A stretch of 64,000 nucleotides of DNA from Aphrocallistes beatrix. Its lineage: Eukaryota; Porifera; Hexactinellida; Sceptrulophora; Aphrocallistidae. The stretch's first letter is position 1; every line of letters starts with the position of its first letter. Below are positions 6,781-51,554 of this stretch, piece after piece. Under the pieces are notes generated by a model. The model was not told the DNA's origin and made no database searches. It saw only the letters and a program-made list of their open reading frames with translations. Where the stretch lies: assembly GCA_963281255.1 (NCBI GenBank), contig OY725506.1, positions 2,337,001 to 2,401,000 of the forward strand, written 5' to 3'. The position numbers were made by a program, and so were the translations under genes.

Positions 6781-8088
6781 GATGTATTTTCTTGGTTTTC
6801 CTATTCAATATCTTACGATAAATGTCGAAATTCTTTGAAATTCTATTGTACGAATTAGTATTTTATTGCTCATCTATGGATATTCCAAATGAAATTTCTG
6901 ATCTTTTTGATAATTATCATATTGATAGTTTATATCGTCTTTGTCGGTTTTGTTTTAATCGACTTTCTTCCCAAACTATCCCCAAGGAAGCCATTCGCAA
7001 ACTACCTACCCAACTGGTAGTAGAAAGAGCAAATTTTATCAGATACATTTCAAGGTAGAAATTTCTGATATGACTAAGCCTAAAGTTCTTTGCTCTGGCT
7101 GTCGTACTCGTCTTGCTAATCTGGAAACTGGGAAATTAACTTTGGAAAAATTCGAGAAGGATCGTAAAAATCTCGAGATTCTGCCAATTATCGAAGATCA
7201 ACAATATGGTACTCGTAGAATTACAGGTTGTACATCAGATAATCGTTGCCATGTTTGCCAAATTAATGGCTCTTGCCTTAACAACTACATGGTCAAACTT
7301 AAAACTCATGGTCCTAAACCAGGCAGACCTCTAGAACAGTCACCATGTAGAACAATGTGTAGTAAATGTGGAAAATTTCTAGAAAATCACAACGATAGAT
7401 TTTGTAGAAATATCCTAAAACACCCCCACAGTTCATCAGAAGCTGGAAAGCATTTTGCGGAGAGAGTAGAAGCACGAGGGTTTACAAGTAAATTAGCAGC
7501 TGGTTATATCAAAGACACATTAAAAAAAGATATTCATTCTAATCCATGCAAGCCATTAATTGGTCTCAACCATCCCTTTGATGCAAACAACAGACTGGCA
7601 ATAACAACAATCAAATATGATGGTAGAAAAAGTCCAGTACTAAAGCAATCGAGCATTGAATCTGCTCGAGATATTCAAAGACTAGGACATCTTGGTCTTG
7701 GAAAACATTCATATTGGGAATTGGGCAGAATTTTACGTCGGGATGGGATTGTCTTTCCTTCAGGAGGAATTAAAGAGGCATGGGATGAAAAATGGTCGGT
7801 ATTCGGAAGCATTTTCACTCCAATCACCCTTCAGATGATATGTAGAGAAAATACAAAGAATCCAATGCCAACGCCATTCGGATTTTGTACAGATATTGAA
7901 CATCTCCTTAACATCATCACTCATAATCAATCGGATAAAGTTTCAAGATTAAAACTACAAATTGATGGAGGAAGAGAATTCCTGAAAATGTCGTTAAATA
8001 TCGTATCCATGAATCCTGGTAGCATCTATTCTCCTACACCAAATAGCGTACTTTCCAACTTTGTTATTGCAATGGGTCATGGTCTAGA

Positions 8089-8092
8089 GAAC
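8089..8092. repeat. Left GAAC target-site duplication of the Ginger element
   Basis: GAAC directly precedes the terminus TGTTTCG at 8093 and is repeated at 12360-12363 after CGAAACA. Confidence 0.9.
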
Positions 8093-8258
8093 TGTTTCGC
8101 AGTATTTTGAGGCGCGTAGTATTTTGAGGCGCTTATATAGATGGTGTATATATGGACCATGGATGTGCTATTATATTTTAACCTGTAGGATTCTGAGGCG
8201 ATATCGTAGGATTTTGAGGCGCTTGTATAGGTGGAACAGGGATGTTCTATTATATTTA
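8093..8258 (+). repeat. Left terminal inverted repeat of the Ginger element
   Basis: About 166 bp pairing with 12193-12359. It contains repeated GTAKTATTTTGAGGCG or GTAGGATTYTGAGGCG motifs near 8099, 8116, 8185 and 8206, likely transposase-binding subrepeats (inference). Confidence 0.88.
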
Positions 8259-8433
8259 ATTTTGAGAGAGGCTCTTCTTTTGCTATACTATTTAATTATA
8301 TAAGTAGACTATACGTAGTTGAAATGCAAATATATTTTTACTCATTTGAATTATGATTTTATTGTTTTTATTTATCTGTTACGTATTTGACAGTTTTTAC
8401 GTATTTTACTCGTGATATCATCAATAATCTGCA

Positions 8434-11400
8434 ATGGATCCGGATGAATATCATAAACTCGTCAAGTTTCTCACAGAAGAAGCATATCCAGAAGAAGCCA
8501 TGACTCATAGGCTTAAATGGAATTACAAGAGGAAATCCTCCTCCTATTTCGTTGGGGAAAAAAGCAAACTCTACAAGGTAGGTAATCCTGCTTTTCTAGG
8601 AATATAACATCCCTCTCGCCTAACCCATCCCTCTGATCATTTTCATGCGCCTAGCCTGTATGCATTGATTATTACGATATAGGAGTTTAAGCAAAATATA
8701 TCGCTCCTAAAGTATGCGCGCCGCTGCGATCATGTAACGAGGTTAACCTATCATTAACTTTATCTTTAGAGAGTGAACTTCAAAGGCAGAGAAACCGATC
8801 TAGAGGTTCCCTTGCGTTCTGAATTGGGAAGCATCATGCAAAAATATCATGACGGTACTGGTCATCCGGGCATCAATGCGACAGTCAATTCTATTCAGCA
8901 ACGCTATACTTGGGCAGGCATCTACAGTGACACTGCATCTTATGTAAGTAATGTTTATAGTATGGCTACGTATGTCTCTGCAATTTAATAAAATGTATCT
9001 TACTTCAAAGAAATCTTTATGCATTTTATATGATGGCCTTTCTCTAAATAGAAAAAGACATGCTATGGCTGCCAGATGACTAATACGCTACCACCTCAGC
9101 CACAAAAGAAGCTACACCCAATTCCACCTCCATCGCAAACTTGGAAACATATTGGCATGGATCTCATTTGTGATCTGTCAGTTAGTGAAGATGGCTACAA
9201 ACATGTCCTAGTCACTGTTTGCTATCTGAGCAAGTACGTCGTTGTAAGGCCCCTCAAAACGAAGACTTCTGAAGAAGTCATCGAAAATCTGAAGGATATC
9301 TACCTGGATATCGGATTACCAGATATCATCCAACATGACCAAGGAAAGGAATTCACGAGTAAAGTAAGGAATAGTATTATAAAGATCTTGATTTTTTCTG
9401 ATCAATATGCTTTCAACTACACTTGTCTTTTTTCGGCTAGATTTTCCAAGAATTCCATCCGCAACTACTGGTTGATAATCGTAGCACCCGTGCATACCAC
9501 CCGATGTCCAATGGGCTTGTTGAATCTCACAACAAGATTTTGAAAACGTACGTTGTTTATGTATGTATATGCTAGTTTATTCCGTTTTAAACAAAATTAT
9601 TTGATCTATTTTGTATGAGTTTCCCATTATTTCCCCTTACATATGTTGACATTATTTCATTTTTTAGTAAACTAGTCAAGATGGAATTAGAGACAGGTGA
9701 TCATTGGTCAAAATTGTTAAAATCCGCAGCCATTGCGATGAATTCCACCAAAAAGAGATCACACGGACAAACACCTTTCAAGGTGATGTGGGGAAGAGAA
9801 TCCAGGCATCAAGATCTACTTTCGGCGATCAATGATTTAGATCTAAACGAAGATTCAGATTTTGAATTGGAAGAGGCAATTATATCTGAAACCGTGCCTC
9901 CGGAAGATAAGTGTGTCGATTTGTTTTTCCCACCTCATGACCAACCCCAGGAAGAAGTTGCTCTCATCCACGCAGCCCGAGCAGCCACCAACAAGTCAGC
10001 TATGGATTGTATCAATTTTGAGCAACTCAGACAAAAGATACATTATGATAAGAAAGTGACTGGCAACAGGTGAGTTGATTCTTTCATACTATACTACTAA
10101 GTAATATTCATAATGGTGACTCTTGAAAAGCTAAATTAATTTTCATTTAAATATCAACAGGCCATCTCTAATGAAAGGTGATCAAGTCCTCGTTACTAAC
10201 ATGGCCAAATTAAAGAGGTTACCGAACACCAAAGAGCAGGGGAAGTATTTAGGACCTCACAAAGTGTCGAGGGTGACAGAGAGTCATGCTGTGCTTGTAA
10301 GTACTGACCCATCCAAAAAAGAAAAGAAAGCTCCACTCCACATCGTAAGGCCATATTTTGAACGTCCCTTTAAGCCTTTAGAAAGGAAACGAAAGGCTGT
10401 AGATATTGTTAGCAATGAATGCAGCAAAAAGACAAAAACCGACTCTTCTCAGGTACGTAGTTCACATCGATTTTGTTATTTGAAGTGTTCAAGTAACACG
10501 AATTTAGGAATTTTCTTCTAGGTTTGTCCGAGTCTCTTTGGATTCAGCCGAGAAACCATATTCACACACGTCAGGAATTTCAAAGTAATGATTACCTTCT
10601 TTTTCACAACATAGTTCCATTTTGATATCGTATTTTGTTGTTTGTCTAAAATTAAATTATTCGATTGACGTCAATGATACTACAATTGAATCTTCATCGT
10701 CACTACAATTCTATATGGTGTAATATTTTGTACTTTCGTTATTCAATGTCTTGATTCACCTGTAGGAAATTCTGAGGGGGAATCTACGGAGTGGTACCTT
10801 CATGGCACCGCTACATGAGAGTTTACACCATAAACTCAAAGTGAAGCACGACTATGTCCCCAATGTCCTTCTATTCCAGTTTTTAAATGATGCACGAGAA
10901 GAACAGATTGTAAGTTTTAGATACCTAAATTGGTTTTTACATCTAATGATACCAGCATCACTCATATATAAGTAACTACAATACCGCCAACGCACTGTTT
11001 TTCTTACACATTGGGGATTGATGCAATAATCTGTTCAGAAACATTTTCCCCTGTCATGTCTAAAATCCCCCATTATTAATTATATCAGCGAAAATTGGCA
11101 AAGGACTAAATGCGACCTCTTGGGACTTCCGTTTCATTCTATCAGCAAGCAACCTGTCAACTACAACGGGAAGCTACTCGAGAACTATGAGCCGTGGGAA
11201 ACGGAGAACATAGTTGGTGACGGGAATTGCCTTTTTCGCTGTTTTTCTCACATCATTACTGGTAGCCAAAACAGCCATCCGCAACTCAGAGCCATTATTG
11301 CTCATTTTATTGCAAGCGAAGGTATATCACGACTTGGATGGTATTTTAAATCGAAGCGATTGACACCTTGTGGATACTTTCTTACAGAAAATCTAACATC

Positions 11401-11668
11401 TCTTGAAGGAACTTGGGGTAGTGATGTTGAGATTATGGCCGCTTCTGATATTCTTAATGTCGACATCTATGTGGCCAATAACGATTATAGGAAGGAAGGG
11501 ACTCTAACTCGTGAAGTACGTTGGAGCTTACTGGGCGCTAGCACGAATCCAACCGCAGCACTCTACATCACCAACTATGGTCTTCACTTTGAACCAGTCA
11601 CCTCGATGCTGAATATCCCAACTCCTACATATGGCTCAATCTCAGATCAAGTACACTTAGTTGAGTAA
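8434..11668 (+). CDS. Ginger1-like transposase: H2C2 zinc finger, DDE integrase, GPY/F-like module and OTU protease
   Basis: Predicted exons: 8434-8577, 8770-8943, 9052-9363, 9441-9547, 9668-10069, 10161-10452, 10522-10584, 10766-10909 and 11039-11668. All introns are GT-AG and phases agree, giving 755 residues with no internal stop. ATG 8434 is the first Met consistent with the frame. Residues ~72-113 form an H2C2 finger (YHDGTGHPG to CYGC). The integrase core has Asp143 (GMDLICD), Asp202 (QHDQGKEF) and Glu238 (NGLVESHNK), an exact 35-residue Asp-Glu gap. Exon 6 has a GPY/F-like motif (YLGPHKVSRV). Exon 9 carries an OTU domain with Asp607-Gly-Asn-Cys610 and a candidate His729 (LHFEPV). The integrase would cut and join element ends; the OTU domain may remove ubiquitin from the transposase or host factors (inference). 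Confidence 0.92.
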
Positions 11669-11721
11669 CAACCAGCCCTTCCTAATGACGTTACACTTGC
11701 TTACAACTTGCCATCCAGCTC

Positions 11722-11778
11722 GAGTGTATTGCGTGAAAGGCAACGCAACTGATGAGTCCAAGCCGGGACGAAACACTC
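11722..11778 (+). ncRNA. Hammerhead ribozyme, type III topology, in the Ginger 3' untranslated region
   Basis: Invariant cores CTGATGA (11749-11755) and GAAA (11770-11773) are present. Stem III pairs GAGTG (11722-11726) with CACTC (11774-11778). U11727 pairs with the last core A, and cleavage would follow A11728, an allowed H nucleotide. Stem I pairs TTGCGT (11729-11734) with ACGCAA (11743-11748), closing an 8-nt loop. Stem II pairs GTCC (11756-11759) with GGAC (11766-11769), closing AAGCCG. The loops contain GGC and GCC and could pair, as loop contacts do in active natural hammerheads. It lies 54 nt after the transposase stop, on the sense strand. Cleavage would separate the coding part from the poly(A) tail. 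Activity is inferred, not shown. Confidence 0.88.
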
Positions 11779-11925
11779 AAAGGAATTACTTAATACATCT
11801 CAGTACTATGACCTCGGTACACATGATGCCAGTGCCAGACTAGAGCTAGACGAACCTTATCAGAAGAGTTGACTGATTAATAAGATGACACTCTTCTTAT
11901 AGAAAACATTTCAACATAGCAATTT

Positions 11926-11931
11926 AATAAA
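11926..11931 (+). promoter_or_regulatory. Poly(A) signal AATAAA of the Ginger transcript
   Basis: AATAAA lies 258 nt after the transposase stop and about 150 nt after the hammerhead motif, upstream of the right terminal repeat. Confidence 0.5.
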
Positions 11932-12149
11932 TTTTTGTATGTAATTGAATGTACATATTTTGTACTGTAATCAATAATTATGTATACGGTAAGTATTGTT
12001 GGAAAATGTATGGAATTTTGCATTAATAATATGTCATTATGTCCGAAATTATTTCATTAGACATATTTCCAAATTATAATGTTAATATGGTAGTAATCTT
12101 CGATTAATTACAATCACGAACTTGTACAAGATATATACAATCATGTATA

Positions 12150-12359
12150 AGCGCCTCAAAATCCTACGATATCGCCTCAGAATCCTACTGTTCAAAATAT
12201 AATAGCACATCCCTGGTTCACCTATACAAGCGCCTCAAAATCCTACGATATCGCCTCAGAATCCTACAGGTTAAAATATAATAGCACATCCATGGTCCAT
12301 ATATACACCATCTATATAAGCGCCTCAAAATACTACGCGCCTCAAAATACTACGAAACA
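12150..12359 (+). repeat. Right terminal inverted repeat of the Ginger element with an extra subrepeat module
   Basis: 12193-12359 mirrors the left end. A further module with GCGCCTCAAAATCCTACG and CGCCTCAGAATCCTAC begins near 12150, so the right end has an additional ~85-bp copy. The direct repetition suggests internal duplication of transposase-binding sites (inference). Confidence 0.85.
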
Positions 12360-13366
12360 GAACTATCAAAATCTGAAAGAGCTATTCAGTTTTCCCTCAA
12401 TTCAAAAATTGTTTTTAATCAATGCGCCTGTACAAATATCTTGTGATTTTAAGGTAGCAGCTTTAATTGTCGGGATTCAGCAAGCATCGAGCAAATATCC
12501 CTGTCCTTACTGTTTGTGGCGCAATGGTACTTCTTGCACTGGAGTATCAAACCAATCGAGGATGCGAGAAGAAATGATGAATGACCTTGCAAAGAAACAT
12601 CATAATGTCATTAACGATCCACTCATTCATTGGTCAGAGTCAGTAATGGAAAAAATTGCTCTAGTTCCACTGCATATTCTTCTCGGGCTCGTAAATAGAC
12701 TATTTTCTGAATAGAGTATTTTCTGAAAAGCTACAAATAAAAAAGATCGTCAGTTGTAAACTCCACTGTATGGCGTTATGTAAATACAATGTGTTTCGTT
12801 CAGAATATTGGAATGGCACCCTAGAAGGCAATTCTTGTTCGAGACTTCTAGACCACTTAGATGATATTCCATTTCAAGCCAGCTCAGTATGCTTTATCAA
12901 TGCATTAAAAACTTTGAAACAAGTCAATGATAAATGCCTAGGGATAGTGAGAAAATCAGGTTGGCAAGATAGTATTCGAGCATTTAGAGAAGCATGGCGT
13001 GATACAGGGTTACCTTGGTCTTTGAAATCACATATCTTACCGGATCATTATGAGGAATACTTGACCCGTTTTGAAAATGACGCAAATACTGGTGCAGCAC
13101 TTAGTTCAGAGCAAAGCGGGGAAATGCTACATTCCAGACTGCAAAAGGTATGGGATCTTCGATTCAAGACTAGGGCTGAAAATCCATTATTTTCTCAACG
13201 TCTTGTTGATTGTATGGTAACATACAACTATAATATCCCTTAAATGGCGCTAGATTTTTGCTAACTCATTTCCGGTTAAGTCATTTTGGGCGGGGAAACC
13301 TTAGAAGTGTGGGGTCTTTGCTATAAATAGGGATAACTTAAATTGGGATAGGGCACAAAGGTCTTT

Positions 13367-24440: not shown

Positions 24441-25185
24441 AACGGACCCATTGAAGGAAATCAGTATCCAACTATATTTAACTTAGAAAGAATTAGCGTT
24501 TGAATGTACAAACTTGAAAAAACAAACTTCACTTGAACCATGAATTTTTCCACTCCTAGAAGCGAATATATCTCAATATCACACCTTTTAAATTGATAAA
24601 TTTGCTATTTTAAAGCTGGGCTATTTATGCATAATACGTAGTTTTAAACTAGCTCTGACGCGTGAATTTTTCTAGTTACTCTATTGAAAGAATTTCTAAC
24701 TGAAGAATATTTTATTTGAGGGGTTTTTACCATTCCCTTGATCCAGATTTTACAAGTGAGTTTCATATAATTTTATAATAATTATTTTTCATAGAAACAA
24801 TCTTCCCCTTCTTTTCATTAGATAAAGAGCATGCAAATGATTGCACGATTTGTAATTTTTGAAAAATAATATATCGAGCTGTATAATTTTTGAAACTGTT
24901 TTGTACTCTAGGGTCCGAATAAACGGCCACCCGCTTATTCCACCCCCATTAATTTGGACCCCTAGAGTACTTTGGTTATTTCATCTGAATAGTGCCTAGA
25001 AAGGGGATATCAGTGTAGATATCTTATATCAACATGTTAACATATGCACACCTGATAAATTTATTTATCACAATGATTGTCTTGTGGGTTCACTTCCTGT
25101 TTCATTTTCATTTTACACACTGTTTATCAAAGCTCCATGGAATATTTTTTTAAACTGAAATTCGCTACATTAACCTTGGAATAAC
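24441..25185. other. No gene; contains a 68-bp palindromic mini-element
   Basis: At 24903-24970, GTACTCTAGGGTCC and GGACCCCTAGAGTAC are inverted around a short GC-richer centre, like a very small TA-flanked MITE. The remainder is AT-rich and unassigned. Confidence 0.5.
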
Positions 25186-25191
25186 TTGGCT

Positions 25192-25875
25192 CATGGGGTC
25201 ATTTTTGACCCCACTAAAAACTAGGACGGGAATGACCATGGGGTTACTTTCGACCCCACTGAAAACCATGACGGGCATGACCATGGGGTCACTTTCGACC
25301 CCACTGAAAACTAGTACGGGCATGACCATGGGGTCATTTTTGACCCTACTGAAAACCAGGACGGGCATGGCCATGGGGTCACTTTCGACCCCACTGAAAA
25401 CCAGGACGGGTATGACCATGGGGTCACTTTTGACCCCACTGAAAACCAGGACGGGCATGACCATGGGGTCACTTTCGACCCCACTGAAAACCAGGACGGG
25501 CATGACCATGGGGTCACTTTCGACCCCACTGAAAACCAGGACGGGTATGACCATGGGGTCACTTTTGACCCCACTGAAAACCAGGACGGGCATGACCATG
25601 GGGTCACTTTCGACCCCACTGAAAACCAGGACGGGCATGACCATGGGGTCACTTTCGACCCCACTGAAAACCAGGACGGGTATGACCATGGGGTCACTTT
25701 TGACCCCACTGAAAACCAGGACGGGCATGACCATGGGGTCACTTTCGACCCCACTGAAAACCAGGACGGGCATGACCATGGGGTCATTTTTGACCCTACT
25801 GAAAACCAGGACGGGCATGACCATGGGGTCACTTTTGACCCCACTGTAAACCAGGACGGGCATGACAATGGGGTA
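25192..25875 (-). repeat. 45-bp minisatellite array 1, about 15 units
   Basis: Units contain GGGGTCAYTTTYGACCCCAC, ACTGAAAACCAGGACGGG and CATGACCAT. Because 45 is divisible by 3 and the unit lacks stops, long frames run through both strands; these are artefacts. A 135-bp higher-order pattern is visible: the TATGACC variant recurs at 25411, 25546 and 25681. The related array 2 at 50080-51062 has the opposite orientation. Confidence 0.95.
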
Positions 25876-26089
25876 ATGGGTGTTGAATCCAGAACAAAAT
25901 ATAAATCTATCCTTATTACATAGCCTAAAATGAGTAATCAATTTTCAAATCAAGATTGTTAAAAAGGGTACTTCATAGAAAAAATCTACAATTACAGGTT
26001 TTATAATTGTCTTAGGTCCTACTGCGTCGAAAGAAATGATAGAGTTGCATTCATGGATTCAGAGTTACGTGTCTGGGCTTTAGAAGGTG

Positions 26090-31654: not shown

Positions 31655-33670
31655 CCATCCTTCTTCTGTACCGTTACTGAGACCTGGTTCACGTCAAGGG
31701 ATGCAGCGGTGAGAGCTGAATGCACTCCACCCGGCTACCAACTCCTTGATCGTGCTAGATCAGCACATCGTCAGGGTGGAGACACTGCACTTCTCTGTCG
31801 TGATTCCTTCACGGTGAAGTGCAATGCATCTGGTGAAGTATCATCTTTTGAGTTCTCGGATTGGACTATCTCTTCTTCTGAAATCTCCCTTCGTATTATC
31901 CTAATTTATCGGCCTCCCTACTCAAGGAATCATCCTATTTCTATTTCTACCTTCTTTGATCAGTTTTCTTCTCTCCTCGAACCCATCCTCTTAAGCAAGG
32001 AGCCCCTAACAATAACTGGAGACTTCAATATCCATGTTGACATCCCGTCTGAGTCTTTACAGTTCCCCGAGCTCCTGCGTTCTCTATCTTTGATCCAGCA
32101 TGTGAATCAGCCAACTCATGAGAAGGGTCACATTCTCGATCTAATAATATCCCGTTCTGCTGACAACATCATCCTCTCTGATCCCTCTCCTGTCCATCTA
32201 TTCTCTGACCATTTCTCCATCTCTTGTAGTCTCTCGCTTTCCAAACCTTCTCTTTCCTCTCAGGAGGTTACCTATCGTTCCAAATCCATCAACCTCCCAA
32301 TCTTTCTTGCTGATCTCGCTTCCACTGATCTCTGTGCTCGCCCACCTGATCATCTTGAACTTATTGTATCATATAACAGCACTCTATCCTCTATCTATGA
32401 TCAGCATGCTCCTCCGCGATCCAAAACCATAGTCACCCGTCCCCGTGTCCCTTGGTTCACCAGTAGCATCAAGCAGGCCTAGCGAGCGAAAAGGAAAACT
32501 GAACCTACACCTCATGCTGATAAGGCTGCTCTTTCTCAGGAACTCGCCAACTTCTTTGTTCTTAAGGTAGATAACATCCGTTCCACCATTGATTCAAATG
32601 CATCGTCGTCTTCCCTTACCCCCTCAGATAATTCAAACATCGAATCCCAACATACTTTCCACCAATTCAAAGAATTATCTGAGGAAGGAATTGTTTCCCT
32701 TGTTTCCTCTGCTCCTAATAAATCTTGCATCCTCGATCCTATCCCAGCATCCTTGGTCAAATCATCTCTACCCATCCTAGCACCCATCCTTACGCTAATC
32801 GTAAATGGTTCCCTCTCCGCTGGTCATTTTCCTTCTCCCTGGAAGCGCGCCATCATCTTGCCCAAACTTAAAAGACCAAATCTTGATCCCATCTTCTCTA
32901 ACTATCGTCCACTTAGCAATCTTTCTTTCATTTCTAAGATCACTGAGAGGGCCGCTTCCATCCAGGTCGTGAATCATCTTACATTACATCATCTCTTCCC
33001 CGGGACGCAGTCTGCCTATCGTAAACACCACAGTACGGAGACTGCGCTCCTGAAGGTCACAAACGACATCCTCCTCAGCATGAATCGCTAACACGTATCT
33101 CTTCTGGTTCTTCTTGATCTTAGCTCAGTCTTCGACACCGTCGACCATACCATCTTGCTCAACCGTCTCCAGTCTCATTTCGGCATTTTCGGCTCTTCTC
33201 TGTCTTGGTTTGAATCTTAGCTCTCTGGTAGGACTCAATTCGTCTCGATTAAGGGTTCTAATTCCTCCAACTATATCATCCAGCTCATACAGGTTAAGTC
33301 ATCCAATCGTACTCTACGATCATCCAACGCCATTCTCCATGAACATCCTACTATCAAATCTTCCAAAACTCTGGGTGATCGTGCATTCACTTTAGCTGCG
33401 CCTGTTGAGTGGAATCTTCTGCCTCCGAGCATTCGGAATGCCCCCTCACTTCTTCTCTTCAAAAAACTCCTGAAAACTCATCTTTTCCGTATCGCGCGAC
33501 ACATCCACTTAAATAAATACTCATTAAATTAATTTCAGTGCATATACATACCTTACAAGCATACATACACATACCTACATACACTCAAATACGTACATGT
33601 ATAACATACACTTACTTTTATTGACTTGTACAGCGCACTTGAACATATTAATATGGAATCTGCGCTATAT
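31655..33670 (+). pseudogene. L2/CR1-like non-LTR retrotransposon, internally deleted
   Basis: The endonuclease part (31660-32480) reads TETWFTSRD, IYRPPYS, ITGDFNIHVD and LDLIISRS and ends in TAG 32480-32482. Reverse-transcriptase N-terminal motifs follow in the same frame: PIPASLVK, WKRAIILPKLKRP, NYRPLSNLSFISKI and TGAALLK-like TETALLKVTND. They are cut by TAA 33089-33091 and TAG 33218-33220. The palm with its YxDD box is missing; sequence jumps to the characteristic C-terminus (GDRAFTLAAPVEWNLLPPSIR, LFKKLLKTHLF). The 3' end has the AGCGCACTTGA and GCGCTATATA hairpin typical of L2/CR1 tails. 5'-truncated and dead. Confidence 0.85.
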
Positions 33671-36431: not shown

Positions 36432-38044
36432 TTATTGCATTTCACGTCGGCAAGTAATGCATATTCGAAAGGTTTGTGAATGCTCAGGGCATATGACATG
36501 ATCACAAAAATAACAACTCTGTCCAAATTTCTTATCCGAATTTCGAGAACATTCTTGACACCTTCCCCGTTTAGTTTTAGGTTTAGACTTAGGGGTTTGA
36601 TCTGAAATAACTTTTGGGATAAGAGAAATTGGTGAACTACTAACCTGATCTTCTACTAGTGGTGGGATCATCATGGTTTCAGGTGTTTCGGTATGGGAAG
36701 AAAGGACATCAGATAAATCCTCTGAAGAGTCCGTAATCACTGGCAAACTTGTGTATTGTTCTAAAATAATTGCTGATGCCCTTTTGATCATTTTACTACA
36801 TAATTTAAAACCAGGTGAAATTTGTCTTTCTAATATGATCGGTTTGCATAACTGTTTGGAAAGAATGTAGAGAAACTCTTTCCTTTTATTTTGTCTAACA
36901 ATAGGGGTATCTGGGAATTTAATACAATACAAAACCCAGCATGCTATACAAACAAAACCTATGAGGTCGTAAAAAATTAAGCATGGCCATCGATTTGTTG
37001 TTCGATAAAATCTATACTCTTTTATTTCTTGGTCAAGTTTATCAACACCCCCCTTTCCACGATTATAATCTAATATTATGTTAGGTTTCTTTTTAGGAAG
37101 TTTTGAAATTTTCATATCGTTATGGATACTACTAAGAAGAAAAATGTTTTTATTTTTTTTGGGAATATAAGACAAGAGAATTTGTTCGTCACTGAAGACA
37201 GCTTTAGAAGAATAAACGGGTCGAGATTTTGCATTATGTAACAACCTTGGTACTTCCTTCCGCATTTTTCGTATAGTACCAAGGTATCCAATTTTTTTAT
37301 CATTTAGAAGTCTAGATGAAAGTTTTAAAGACGTAAAGTAATTATCCCCCACGATGACATGGCCGGGGTTTAAAGGAGAAGCTAGGCGGAGGACAATTTC
37401 TTCAGGGGTATTATTCAATTTGCCTTTCCCTGTGTATACCTCTAGGTTAAAAGGATAATAAGTGATCGCATCAGCTAGAAAATTTTAACACCATATCGGT
37501 CTGGTTTCCGTGGTAGATATTGCCTGAACGGGCATTTTCCTCTAAACCTTGCCATATGTTCATCAATCGTGAGAACAGTTCCAGGTGTATAAGTTTGTTT
37601 TAATGATTTGTTTAGGGAATTAAAAACAGCACTTATCGGAGCTAACTTATCTTCTTTTATTCTCTCATCACGAGTAGCAGAATCATCGAATCTCAAGAAC
37701 TTTAGAATGGCTTTGAACCTGTCCCGTGGCATAGTAGCCTTGAAAATAGGCCTAGCCTTATTTTCATCTTCTGAATAAAGATCAATTATTGCCTCACGGC
37801 TTGAATGAAAAATTCCGGTAGTAATTAGTAAACCTAAAAAACCATTTAATTCTTCGATAGAAAAATCAGTAAGATATGCATTTTTCTTTCCCGGATACAG
37901 AGCAATATATTCTTGTAATTTTAAATTCGTCATATCAATAATATATTTAGATAAATTATCATCAAAGAATAACTTTAAAAAATCTAAAAAATCTATATAT
38001 AATGCATATCCAGCTGGCAGAGTATAAGTTAATCGGGTAGACAT
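36432..38044 (-). pseudogene. piggyBac-like transposase, one frameshift
   Basis: Two frames on the minus strand (37475-38044 and 36432-37418) together cover a DDE_Tnp_1_7-type core. The first includes FSIEELNGFLGLLITTGI, MPRDRFKAILKFLRFDD and the first catalytic Asp in LTIDEHMARFRG. The second includes IVGDNYFTSLKLS (second Asp), YNRGKGGVDKLDQ (third Asp), RRTNRW-like TTNRWP and a C-terminal cysteine-rich domain (RCQECSRN to CITC). They are joined by a frame break at the AAAATTTTCTAG stretch near 37480, consistent with loss of one base. The acidic N-terminus is absent here; a candidate lies at 44633-44986. No flanking TTAA or terminal repeats were identified. Confidence 0.9.
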
Positions 38045-49716: not shown

Positions 49717-50079
49717 TATTGCTAAAATACAACATAAATCCTTAAAGTCAACAGTGGCAGATTTAAGGAGGGCACGTGCCCCATTGAAAAAATTGTCGAT
49801 AAAATATAAGGATTTTAGATGGTGCAATTTAAAATATAAGCTTAACCATTTTAGATTTAAACAATTTTTCCACTAAAACAGAACGCGATAAAAACTATTC
49901 TAACAAAGTCAGAACGCAATAAAAACTATTCTGACAAAAACATCTCCAGACAGAGGTAAAATTATGTACAGGCAGGGATGATAAGCAAGTAATTTATTTA
50001 CATGTCCTAAAGAAAAGGTTTTCTATGTGCTGTGTAAACAGTATGTACCAGGTTACGTACAAATTTAAACATCACATGC

Positions 50080-51062
50080 CCGTACTAGTTTTCAGTGGGG
50101 TCAAAATTGACCCCATGGTGATGCCCGTACTAGTTTTCAGTGGGGTCAGAAGTGACCCCATGGTCATGCCCGTACTAGTTTTCAGTAGGGTCAGAAGTGA
50201 TCCCATGGTCATGCCCGTACTAGTTTTCAGTGGGGTCAGAAGTGACCCCATGGTCATGCCCGTACTAGTTTTCAGTGGAGTCAGAAGTGACCCCATGGTC
50301 ATGCCCGTACTAGTTTTCAGTGGAGTCAGAAGTGATCCCATGGTCATGCCCGTACTAGTTTTCAGTGGGGTCAGAAGTGACCCCATGGTCATGCCCGTAC
50401 TAGTTTTCAGTAGGGTCAGAAGTGATCCCATGGTCATGCCCGTACTAGTTTTCAGTGGGGTCAGAAGTGACCCCATGGTCATGCCCGTACTAGTTTTCAG
50501 TGGAGTCAGAAGTGACCCCATGGTCATGCACGTACTAGTTTTCAGTGGAGTCAGAAGTGATCCCATGGTCATGCCCGTACTAGTTTTCAGTGGGGTCAGA
50601 AGTGACCCCATGGTCATGCCCGTACTAGTTTTCAGTGGGGTCAGAAGTGATCCCATGGTCATGCCCGTACTAGTTTTCAGTGGAGTCAGAAGTGACCCCA
50701 TGGTCATGCACGTACTAGTTTTCAGTGGAGTCAGAAGTGATCCCATGGTCATGCCCGTACTAGTTTTCAGTGGGGTCAGAAGTGACCCCATGGTCATGCC
50801 CGTACTAGTTTTCAGTGGGGTCAGAAGTGATCCCATGGTCATGCCCGTACTAGTTTTCAGTGGGGTCAGAATTGACCCCATGGTCATGCCCGTACTAGTT
50901 TTCAGTGGGGTCAGAAGTGATCCCATGGTCATGCCCGTACTAGTTTTCAGTGGGGTCAGAATTGACCCCATGGTCATGCCCGTACTAGTTTTCAGTGGGG
51001 TCAGAAGTGATCCCATGGTCATGCCCGTACTAGTTTTCAGTGGGGTCAGAAGTGACCCCATA
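50080..51062 (+). repeat. 45-bp minisatellite array 2, about 22 units
   Basis: Units read GGGGTCAGAAGTGACCCCAT, GGTCATGCCCGTACTAGT and TTTCAGT. This is the reverse-orientation relative of array 1. A 180-bp higher-order pattern is suggested by the ATGCACG variant at 50526 and 50706. Both strands remain open over about 330 codons because the unit has 15 stop-free codons; no protein is inferred. Confidence 0.95.
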
Positions 51063-51554
51063 GTACTTTGAGGTACGAATTTGAACTAAGTTTGTGCAGG
51101 GTTAAATATGAATCATTTGGACAATAACTCCAATACAATTTCCAAATATTTGCACCGGAAATTGAATTAGCGAATTAGTTTTGACTTACATATATTAAGT
51201 AATCAAATTCATTGAATGATTTGAGGTAGTTATTGTGGAATTCCAAATATGAGGTGAGATGAATGCAAAACGTCTCTCAAACCACTATACTCCAGACAGA
51301 GTATTTCCGAAGGATGGATTAAATATTCTCCAAAATGGTAACTCCATGCATTATTTGAATAGAAAGAATATGAAAATTTTTTACTCTGATTTGGAATATG
51401 AAAAACTATTATTTGCGCACAAATAAGAAATAATTATGAATCAGATTCAAGGGATTGTCACAAGAAATTTGGACTCCCCAGAATGGTTCCCCCGATCCTT
51501 ATATTTCGAAATATTTAGATCCTCGGAACTAATATTTCAGTGTTATGCTGAAAT
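51063..51554. other. No recognisable gene
   Basis: AT-rich unique sequence. Confidence 0.35.

Follow-up and report, generated by a model that had tools for sequence, protein, structure and literature searches.

The window analysed here is the whole stretch of 64,000 nucleotides of Aphrocallistes beatrix DNA. It contains a DNA transposon with a transposase gene, an exon for an OTU cysteine protease and, downstream of the OTU stop codon, a motif that reads as a type III hammerhead ribozyme (Table 1). The inverted arms of the element are approximately 166 nt long and 98% complementary (reported as 8092-8257 / 12195-12360). Removing the element and joining the flanks restores a 457-codon open reading frame that starts at position 7070 and is disrupted by the insertion. 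This interrupted ORF, which is uncharacterised, spans window positions 7070-8092 and 12364 onward, and no Pfam match was found for its first part (from 7070).

Table 1. Features of the transposon and its hammerhead motif (positions in the window)
Feature	Position	Strand	Basis
Left target site duplication (TSD), GAAC	8089-8092	.	
Ginger-like DNA transposon, 4,267 bp, TGTTTCG...CGAAACA ends	8093-12359	+	TIRs, TSD, empty-site ORF
Left terminal inverted repeat (TIR)	8093-8257	+	
Transposase, eight exons, GT-AG borders, H2C2 finger and rve integrase core	8434-10909	+	exons chosen by eye, Pfam
Transposase exons	8434-8577, 8770-8943, 9052-9363, 9441-9547, 9668-10069, 10161-10452, 10522-10584, 10766-10909	+	
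OTU cysteine protease exon (stop codon 11666-11668)	11120-11668	+	ORF, PF02338 1.4e-9
Type III hammerhead ribozyme motif	11722-11778	+	motif reading, fold, genome copies, covariation
Stem III, GAGTGT / ACACTC	11722-11727 / 11773-11778	+	direct reading
H17 = A	11728	+	direct reading
Predicted cut site, A11728 / U11729	between 11728 and 11729	+	
Stem I, TTGCGT / ACGCAA	11729-11734 / 11743-11748	+	direct reading
Loop contact, GGC in loop I / GCC in loop II	11739-11741 / 11762-11764	+	direct reading
Core CTGATGA	11749-11755	+	direct reading
Stem II, GTCC / GGAC	11756-11759 / 11766-11769	+	direct reading
GAA, then A15.1	11770-11772, then 11773	+	direct reading
AATAAA, candidate poly(A) signal	11926-11931	+	
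Right terminal inverted repeat	12195-12359	+	
Right target site duplication, GAAC	12360-12363	.	

The transposase matched Integrase_H2C2 (2.3e-14) and rve (2.1e-9) in Pfam, and the D, D and E residues of the integrase were identified by eye. With the chosen splice sites, transposase exon 8 runs into the OTU exon out of frame. The reason may be an overlooked splice site or else a break in the window copy at this point.

The initial annotation had assigned the element to Ginger. Ginger1 is described in passages of PMC2836005 as having a Gypsy-like integrase with H2C2, a C-terminal OTU or Ulp1 domain, long TIRs and a 4-bp TSD. The window element shares the H2C2 and DDE integrase, the OTU domain, the 4-bp length of the TSD and the TIR length (the Ginger1 range is 40-270 bp). 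In contrast, the same passages give CCGG/CCGT as TSD and TGTNR as termini, whereas the one copy tested has GAAC and TGTTTC and, in addition, carries a ribozyme. Because of the differences in TSD and ends, the element is best called Ginger-like.

The hammerhead motif and its copies in the genome

The full order of the motif (11722-11778) is GAGTGT-A-TTGCGT-GAAAGGCA-ACGCAA-CTGATGA-GTCC-AAGCCG-GGAC-GAA-ACACTC. It has the CUGANGA and GAAA core, three helices, U16.1-A15.1 and an H17 that is not G, and its predicted cleavage site is GUA. The minimum free energy (MFE) structure is a three-way junction with stem III open (-18.8 kcal/mol). Thus, direct reading and folding agree with the initial annotation on the core, the stems, U16.1, the A at the cleavage position and the type III topology, and the complementarity that it had noted between loops I and II is present. 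Its placement of the motif, sense in the 3′ UTR and before AATAAA, was likewise correct: this AATAAA is the sole AATAAA or ATTAAA on the plus strand of 11661-12400. The distance from the stop codon was corrected from 54 to 53 nt.

The initial annotation had proposed a run of the hammerhead covariance model on the window. RF00008 aligned with the motif in a focused search of 1.5 kb, but the score was 17.5 bits (E 1.9) and the gathering score of 48.5 bits was not reached; the motif was not listed in an Rfam scan at the gathering threshold. The folding energy had a z of -1.63, and 16 of 200 shuffles were equally stable. Because of these values, the window motif is unproven by energy or Rfam, and its proof comes from the genome copies with covariation described below. 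The pattern CTGATGAGN{4,24}CGAAA had one match in the window (0.04 expected), and 4 of 100 shuffles had a match. With RF00008, the sister family L086 reached 32.9 bits (E 0.00032), and the best Ginger-linked score among the matches listed in the genome search was 38.2 bits (C15:1985046). Our own covariance model, R1, gave 89.1 bits for the window copy, which was itself among the sequences used to build the model. The terminal heptamer of the element, CGAAACA (12353-12359), recurs within the hammerhead core (11769-11775), and this is probably a coincidence.

We searched the host genome (100,537,919 bases, 100.5 Mb; 28 contigs) for related motifs. A 101-nt DNA query matched at least 40 places (best 40 of 46 candidates scored); among the matches listed, five span most of the query and most others are limited to the hammerhead. 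A 28-nt core pattern with up to three mismatches was found at 60 places (lineage 1), and its reversed control gave none. A looser core pattern gave 67 places and two in the control. Thus, the motif is present in related copies, as the initial annotation had required of a genuine ribozyme, yet many relatives of the element have no recognisable motif. A strict core-and-helix test was passed by 44 of the 60 lineage-1 copies. Stem III is only 4 bp long in 41 of 49 scored copies, and such copies may cleave poorly. U16.1 is lost in L011, L014 and L020, which are decaying. Among the relatives of lineage 1, L086-L089 all pass the strict test (4/4) and have the loop pair GGGA/TCCC; L090, with GGA/TCC, fails because its stem III is broken. 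The MFE structures of the L086 and L059 types, calculated without the loop-loop contact, are not hammerheads. A lineage-1-like hammerhead with an altered stem I (TCAGG/CCTGA) is present in L084 (1540-1635), L085 (1404-1499) and L092; the 96-nt stretch around it is 90.6% identical between L084 and L085, and in these two loci no match to OTU or to an integrase scored below E 0.7.

Next to other OTU genes, two further lineages were found. Lineage 2 is GACCT-A-GCTGGC-AACTA-GCCAGC-CTGATGA-GTCT-TAGAT-AGAC-GAA-AGGTC. It is unlike lineage 1 beyond the catalytic core, adopts the hammerhead fold (z -2.88) and could form a CTA/TAG pairing between its loops. Lineage 3 is GTTCTGGGT-C-TTACCC-TAGCC-GGGTAA-CTGATGA-U-GACC-...-GGTC-GAA-ACCTAGAAC. 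Its site is GUC, its stem III has 9 bp and one additional base follows A9 (z -3.04). Pattern searches of the genome found 24 places for lineage 2 and 14 for lineage 3, with 0 and 0 in the reversed controls, and the strict test was passed by 13 of 21 and 11 of 12 of the copies examined, respectively. Lineages 2 and 3 are hammerheads of unrelated sequence at the same position in other subfamilies.

The genome also contains type III hammerheads of a second set that is unrelated to these lineages (L070-L082; G000 C9:720426, C8:4616379 and others); at least 12 of its matches exceed the Rfam gathering score (best 68 of 13935 candidates scored). Some occur as pairs in short repeats (C9:720426-/721445+ and C10:523171+/525250+). 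The set has a retrozyme-like appearance, and the type expected in an animal genome is type I. The Rfam type I hammerhead model had one match in the host genome (E 0.523) and none over the cut-off.

Linkage to OTU genes and conservation of the motif

A genome search for OTU gave at least 152 matches (best 150 of 482 candidates scored), and the 150 listed rows correspond to 141 loci. Among the matches listed, a same-strand hammerhead lies 75-278 nt downstream of 60 of the 141 loci (31 of lineage 1, 19 of lineage 2 and 10 of lineage 3), and for the other 81 none of the 107 listed motifs was nearby. Of these listed motifs, none lay in sense within 700 nt upstream of any of the 141 loci or in antisense within 1.5 kb. 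Counted from the motifs, a listed OTU row lies upstream of 31/65 in lineage 1, 19/24 in lineage 2, 10/14 in lineage 3 and 0/4 in the outlying L084/L085/L092/L090 set; all these linkage counts are lower bounds because some OTU candidates were unscored, and those for lineages 2 and 3 are biased because both were first found beside OTU loci.

From the 81 rows that then had no lineage-1 match, we sampled 450 nt downstream of 33 OTU loci. Nine pieces carry lineage 2, one carries lineage 3, two carry decayed lineage 1 and 21 carry no hammerhead. Therefore, the motif can be absent or lost. A strict descriptor matched 7 of the 33 pieces in sense, none in antisense and none of 660 shuffles. When 12 of the 21 pieces without a motif were scanned with Rfam for other ribozymes, all matches were below threshold and lay in L117.

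In L028 and L032, the lineage-1 motif lies 3′ of a different ORF of 429 aa, which replaces OTU and occupies the region from 1.5 to 0.2 kb before the motif. No Pfam match of this ORF exceeded the cut-off; judged by eye alone, it resembles a deubiquitinase. A search for upstream integrase covered the window, L169 (the L032 locus, lineage 1 without OTU) and L170 (a lineage-2 element). L169 has a Ginger-type integrase upstream of the 429-aa ORF (31-71% identity in pieces), and L170 has integrase pieces of 44-77% identity. For the GPY/F motif of Ginger1, the residues judged by eye are GPHKV in the window, GPYSV in L169 and GPFTA in L170. Not all lineage-1 motifs lacking OTU are unlinked to Ginger-type elements.

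Two alignments were used to examine covariation. Alignment A1 has 45 distinct rows: identical rows were collapsed, the distant relative L083 was added, and L037 (insertion) and L046 (decayed upstream half) were omitted from the 60 lineage-1 copies. The hammerhead with its loop contact paired 84.6% of cells, versus 21-45% for slid versions of the structure, and double changes were found in 8 of 19 pairs (29 cells). None of 500 shuffles matched the pairing percentage, the double changes or the covariation score; the observed count of further pair types was matched by 28 of 500. At the loop I/loop II contact, most rows have GGC/GCC, and the L059 type has GGT/ACC. Alignment A2 consists of 16 chosen representatives, 12 from lineage 1 and its kin and four from lineage 2, with lineage 3 excluded. 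Here, 99.0% of cells were paired (slid controls, 27-45%), double changes occurred in 11 of 13 pairs with compensatory changes in all three helices, and no shuffle of 500 matched these values, except for further pair types (92/500); these counts lean to the structure because A2 was fitted to the structure of the model and its representatives were selected. When RNAalifold was applied to A1, stem III was missing from the result and its columns were paired otherwise. The claim for stem III is based on the named-structure counts in A1 and A2 and not on RNAalifold. The compensatory stem changes that the initial annotation had asked for were thus seen in all three helices, and also in the loop contact.

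The mean identity of the 62-nt motif between six lineage-1 subfamilies is 85%, with a minimum of 82%. In the coding part, a stretch of 150 nt is 54% identical versus 48% when shuffled, and four 62-nt flank stretches are 45-50% identical, which equals the shuffled level; the flank identities are depressed by indels because the comparison windows were placed at a constant spacing from the motif. In gapped blastn, some subfamily pairs are 68-71% identical over the coding part and motif jointly, which is still under the value of the motif. As judged from these comparisons, the motif is preserved by selection amid changing flanks. In a tree of 33 OTU rows without stops, lineage 1 is split among deep clades, lineage 3 forms one clade (support 95/95), lineage 2 adjoins lineage 1 and motif-less rows are dispersed among the lineages. 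Therefore, lineage 1 is either old, or its 3′ module was swapped between subfamilies; module exchange instead of descent could explain the separate clades. Under either history, the alignments indicate that the lineage-1 motif is retained while its surroundings change. Relatives beyond the host genome were not found in one pattern scan of viral_contigs and two protein scans.

Possible role of the hammerhead in the transposon

The window motif appears to be a type III hammerhead that belongs to the transposon and lies in the 3′ UTR of the transposase/OTU gene. Because a DNA transposon needs no RNA intermediate, a selected role of the ribozyme must concern expression or the fate of the RNA. Hammerheads of such build self-cleave. 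We lean towards the idea that the ribozyme cuts the transposase mRNA in the 3′ UTR, removes the poly(A) tail and limits expression. When the element is transcribed, the RNA would fold and cut itself at the predicted site. The coding part would then have a 2′,3′-cyclic phosphate end and no poly(A) tail, and export and translation of the tailless mRNA would decrease. In this way, the self-cut would be a built-in brake on the transposase dose, which might be lifted if folding is blocked. The sequences show the motif and its position, the element, the conservation, the covariation and the same-strand linkage. We infer the cut from known hammerhead chemistry, and we also infer that expression falls and that the element benefits from this; the brake is favoured because cleavage in the 3′ UTR removes the poly(A) tail. 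A poly(A) signal was found within 700 nt 3′ of the motif in 6 of 9 representatives and not in L030, L038 or L152; L030 has ATTAAA 5′ of the motif. Thus, support for the UTR position is good in the family of the window and weaker in some others. Furthermore, GTGAGT occurs 17-24 nt downstream, at near-fixed spacing, in 31 of the 60 lineage-1 copies (L010-L066); the next 70 nt contain it in 7 of 60. It looks like a splice donor, and cleavage may compete with processing.

Instead of lowering expression, the ribozyme might give the transposase RNA a defined 3′ end without poly(A), which the element would use for nuclear retention, for localisation or for a special translation mode. The placement of all three lineages after a stop codon fits this role, and the GTGAGT hints at coupled processing. 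However, the window's own motif (L023) has no GTGAGT within 70 nt and, to our knowledge, no cut-and-paste element requires a non-polyadenylated RNA end; we consider this role unlikely. It is quite improbable that the ribozyme cuts read-through transcripts from host genes across a sense insertion and thereby limits chimeric RNA or silencing signals. Although the window copy is in sense inside another ORF and all listed OTU-linked motifs are in sense to the OTU gene, such cutting needs no position near a stop codon, and a severed host transcript would mean more harm to the host, not less.

The motif might also be a functionless relic of a retrozyme- or Penelope-type hammerhead inserted into an ancestral element. 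The second hammerhead set would offer a source, and one of its members (C9:1172884) is 3.5 kb from a lineage-1 motif (C9:1176422); therefore, proximity of that set to lineage-1 motifs is possible in general. We nevertheless regard a relic as very improbable. The covariation contradicts a functionless reading, and with flanks at chance level the motif has kept its identity in fixed-distance windows, with compensatory changes. Insertion of a retrozyme was rejected since the second set is unrelated in sequence beyond the core. The window element itself is not a retrozyme or Penelope-like element: it has a single motif, TIRs and an integrase, and not LTR or tandem-repeat hammerheads. The Rfam and folding values of the window motif would be compatible with chance similarity, whose probability is nevertheless negligible in view of the places found for three lineages versus none in reversed controls and of the sense-only matches of the strict descriptor. 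Chance or artefact was rejected by these controls and by the covariation shuffles.

Compared with the type III hammerheads of RF00008 (viroids and plant retrozymes), the window motif has the same core, three helices, open stem III, loop I-loop II contact and U16.1-A15.1. Unlike them, it lies in a cut-and-paste DNA transposon without rolling-circle or LTR context, has a GUA site and scores below Rfam gathering. Mammalian Clec2 3′-UTR hammerheads are discontinuous with a long insert; they too lie between stop codon and poly(A) signal, whereas the window motif is compact and transposon-borne. Penelope-like elements and Terminons are also mobile elements with hammerheads. However, passages of PMC6431247 and PMC7761336 describe them as retroelements with type I motifs that are minimal and often tandem, and the window element has a DDE integrase-type transposase and a single type III motif. 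The earlier statement that animal hammerheads are mostly type I agrees with a passage of PMC7761336, which gives type I as the typical form in metazoan genomes and assigns type III mostly to plants. Another passage there mentions pseudoknot-bearing type III variants in HDV-like RNAs of toads and termites.

The initial annotation knew of no self-cleaving ribozyme in Ginger, and the surveyed literature describes none. This survey included parts of PMC2836005, PMC6431247, PMC8490949, PMC7761336, PMC10045372 and PMC12863088, with subscription papers mostly outside it, and contained no hammerhead in a cut-and-paste DNA transposon; the word ribozyme does not occur in the main text of PMC2836005, in PMC10045372 or in PMC12863088. 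This silence is weak evidence of absence. Animal hammerheads were previously tied to retroelements and circular RNAs, and here they are found in a DNA transposon. The brake on transposase expression might be an RNA-only form of transposase overproduction control. For the effects of a self-cleaving 3′ UTR, one genome offers a natural genetic series of intact, decayed and absent motifs in three lineages.

Elsewhere in the window, there are a piggyBac-like transposase fragment (36432-37418, minus strand; DDE_Tnp_1_7, 2.2e-19), a non-LTR retrotransposon-type endonuclease (31709-32482, plus strand; Exo_endo_phos_2, 7.2e-7) and two tandem arrays with a MVMPVLVFSGVRSDP-like unit, open on both strands (25165-25941 and 50025-51071). 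In COX1, which lies on contig C28, Trp is encoded by TGA (14 TGA, 0 TGG), and ATA is found at a conserved Ile, AAA at a conserved Lys and AGA at Ser positions (AGA by eye), a pattern that we take to be the glass sponge (Hexactinellida) mitochondrial code.
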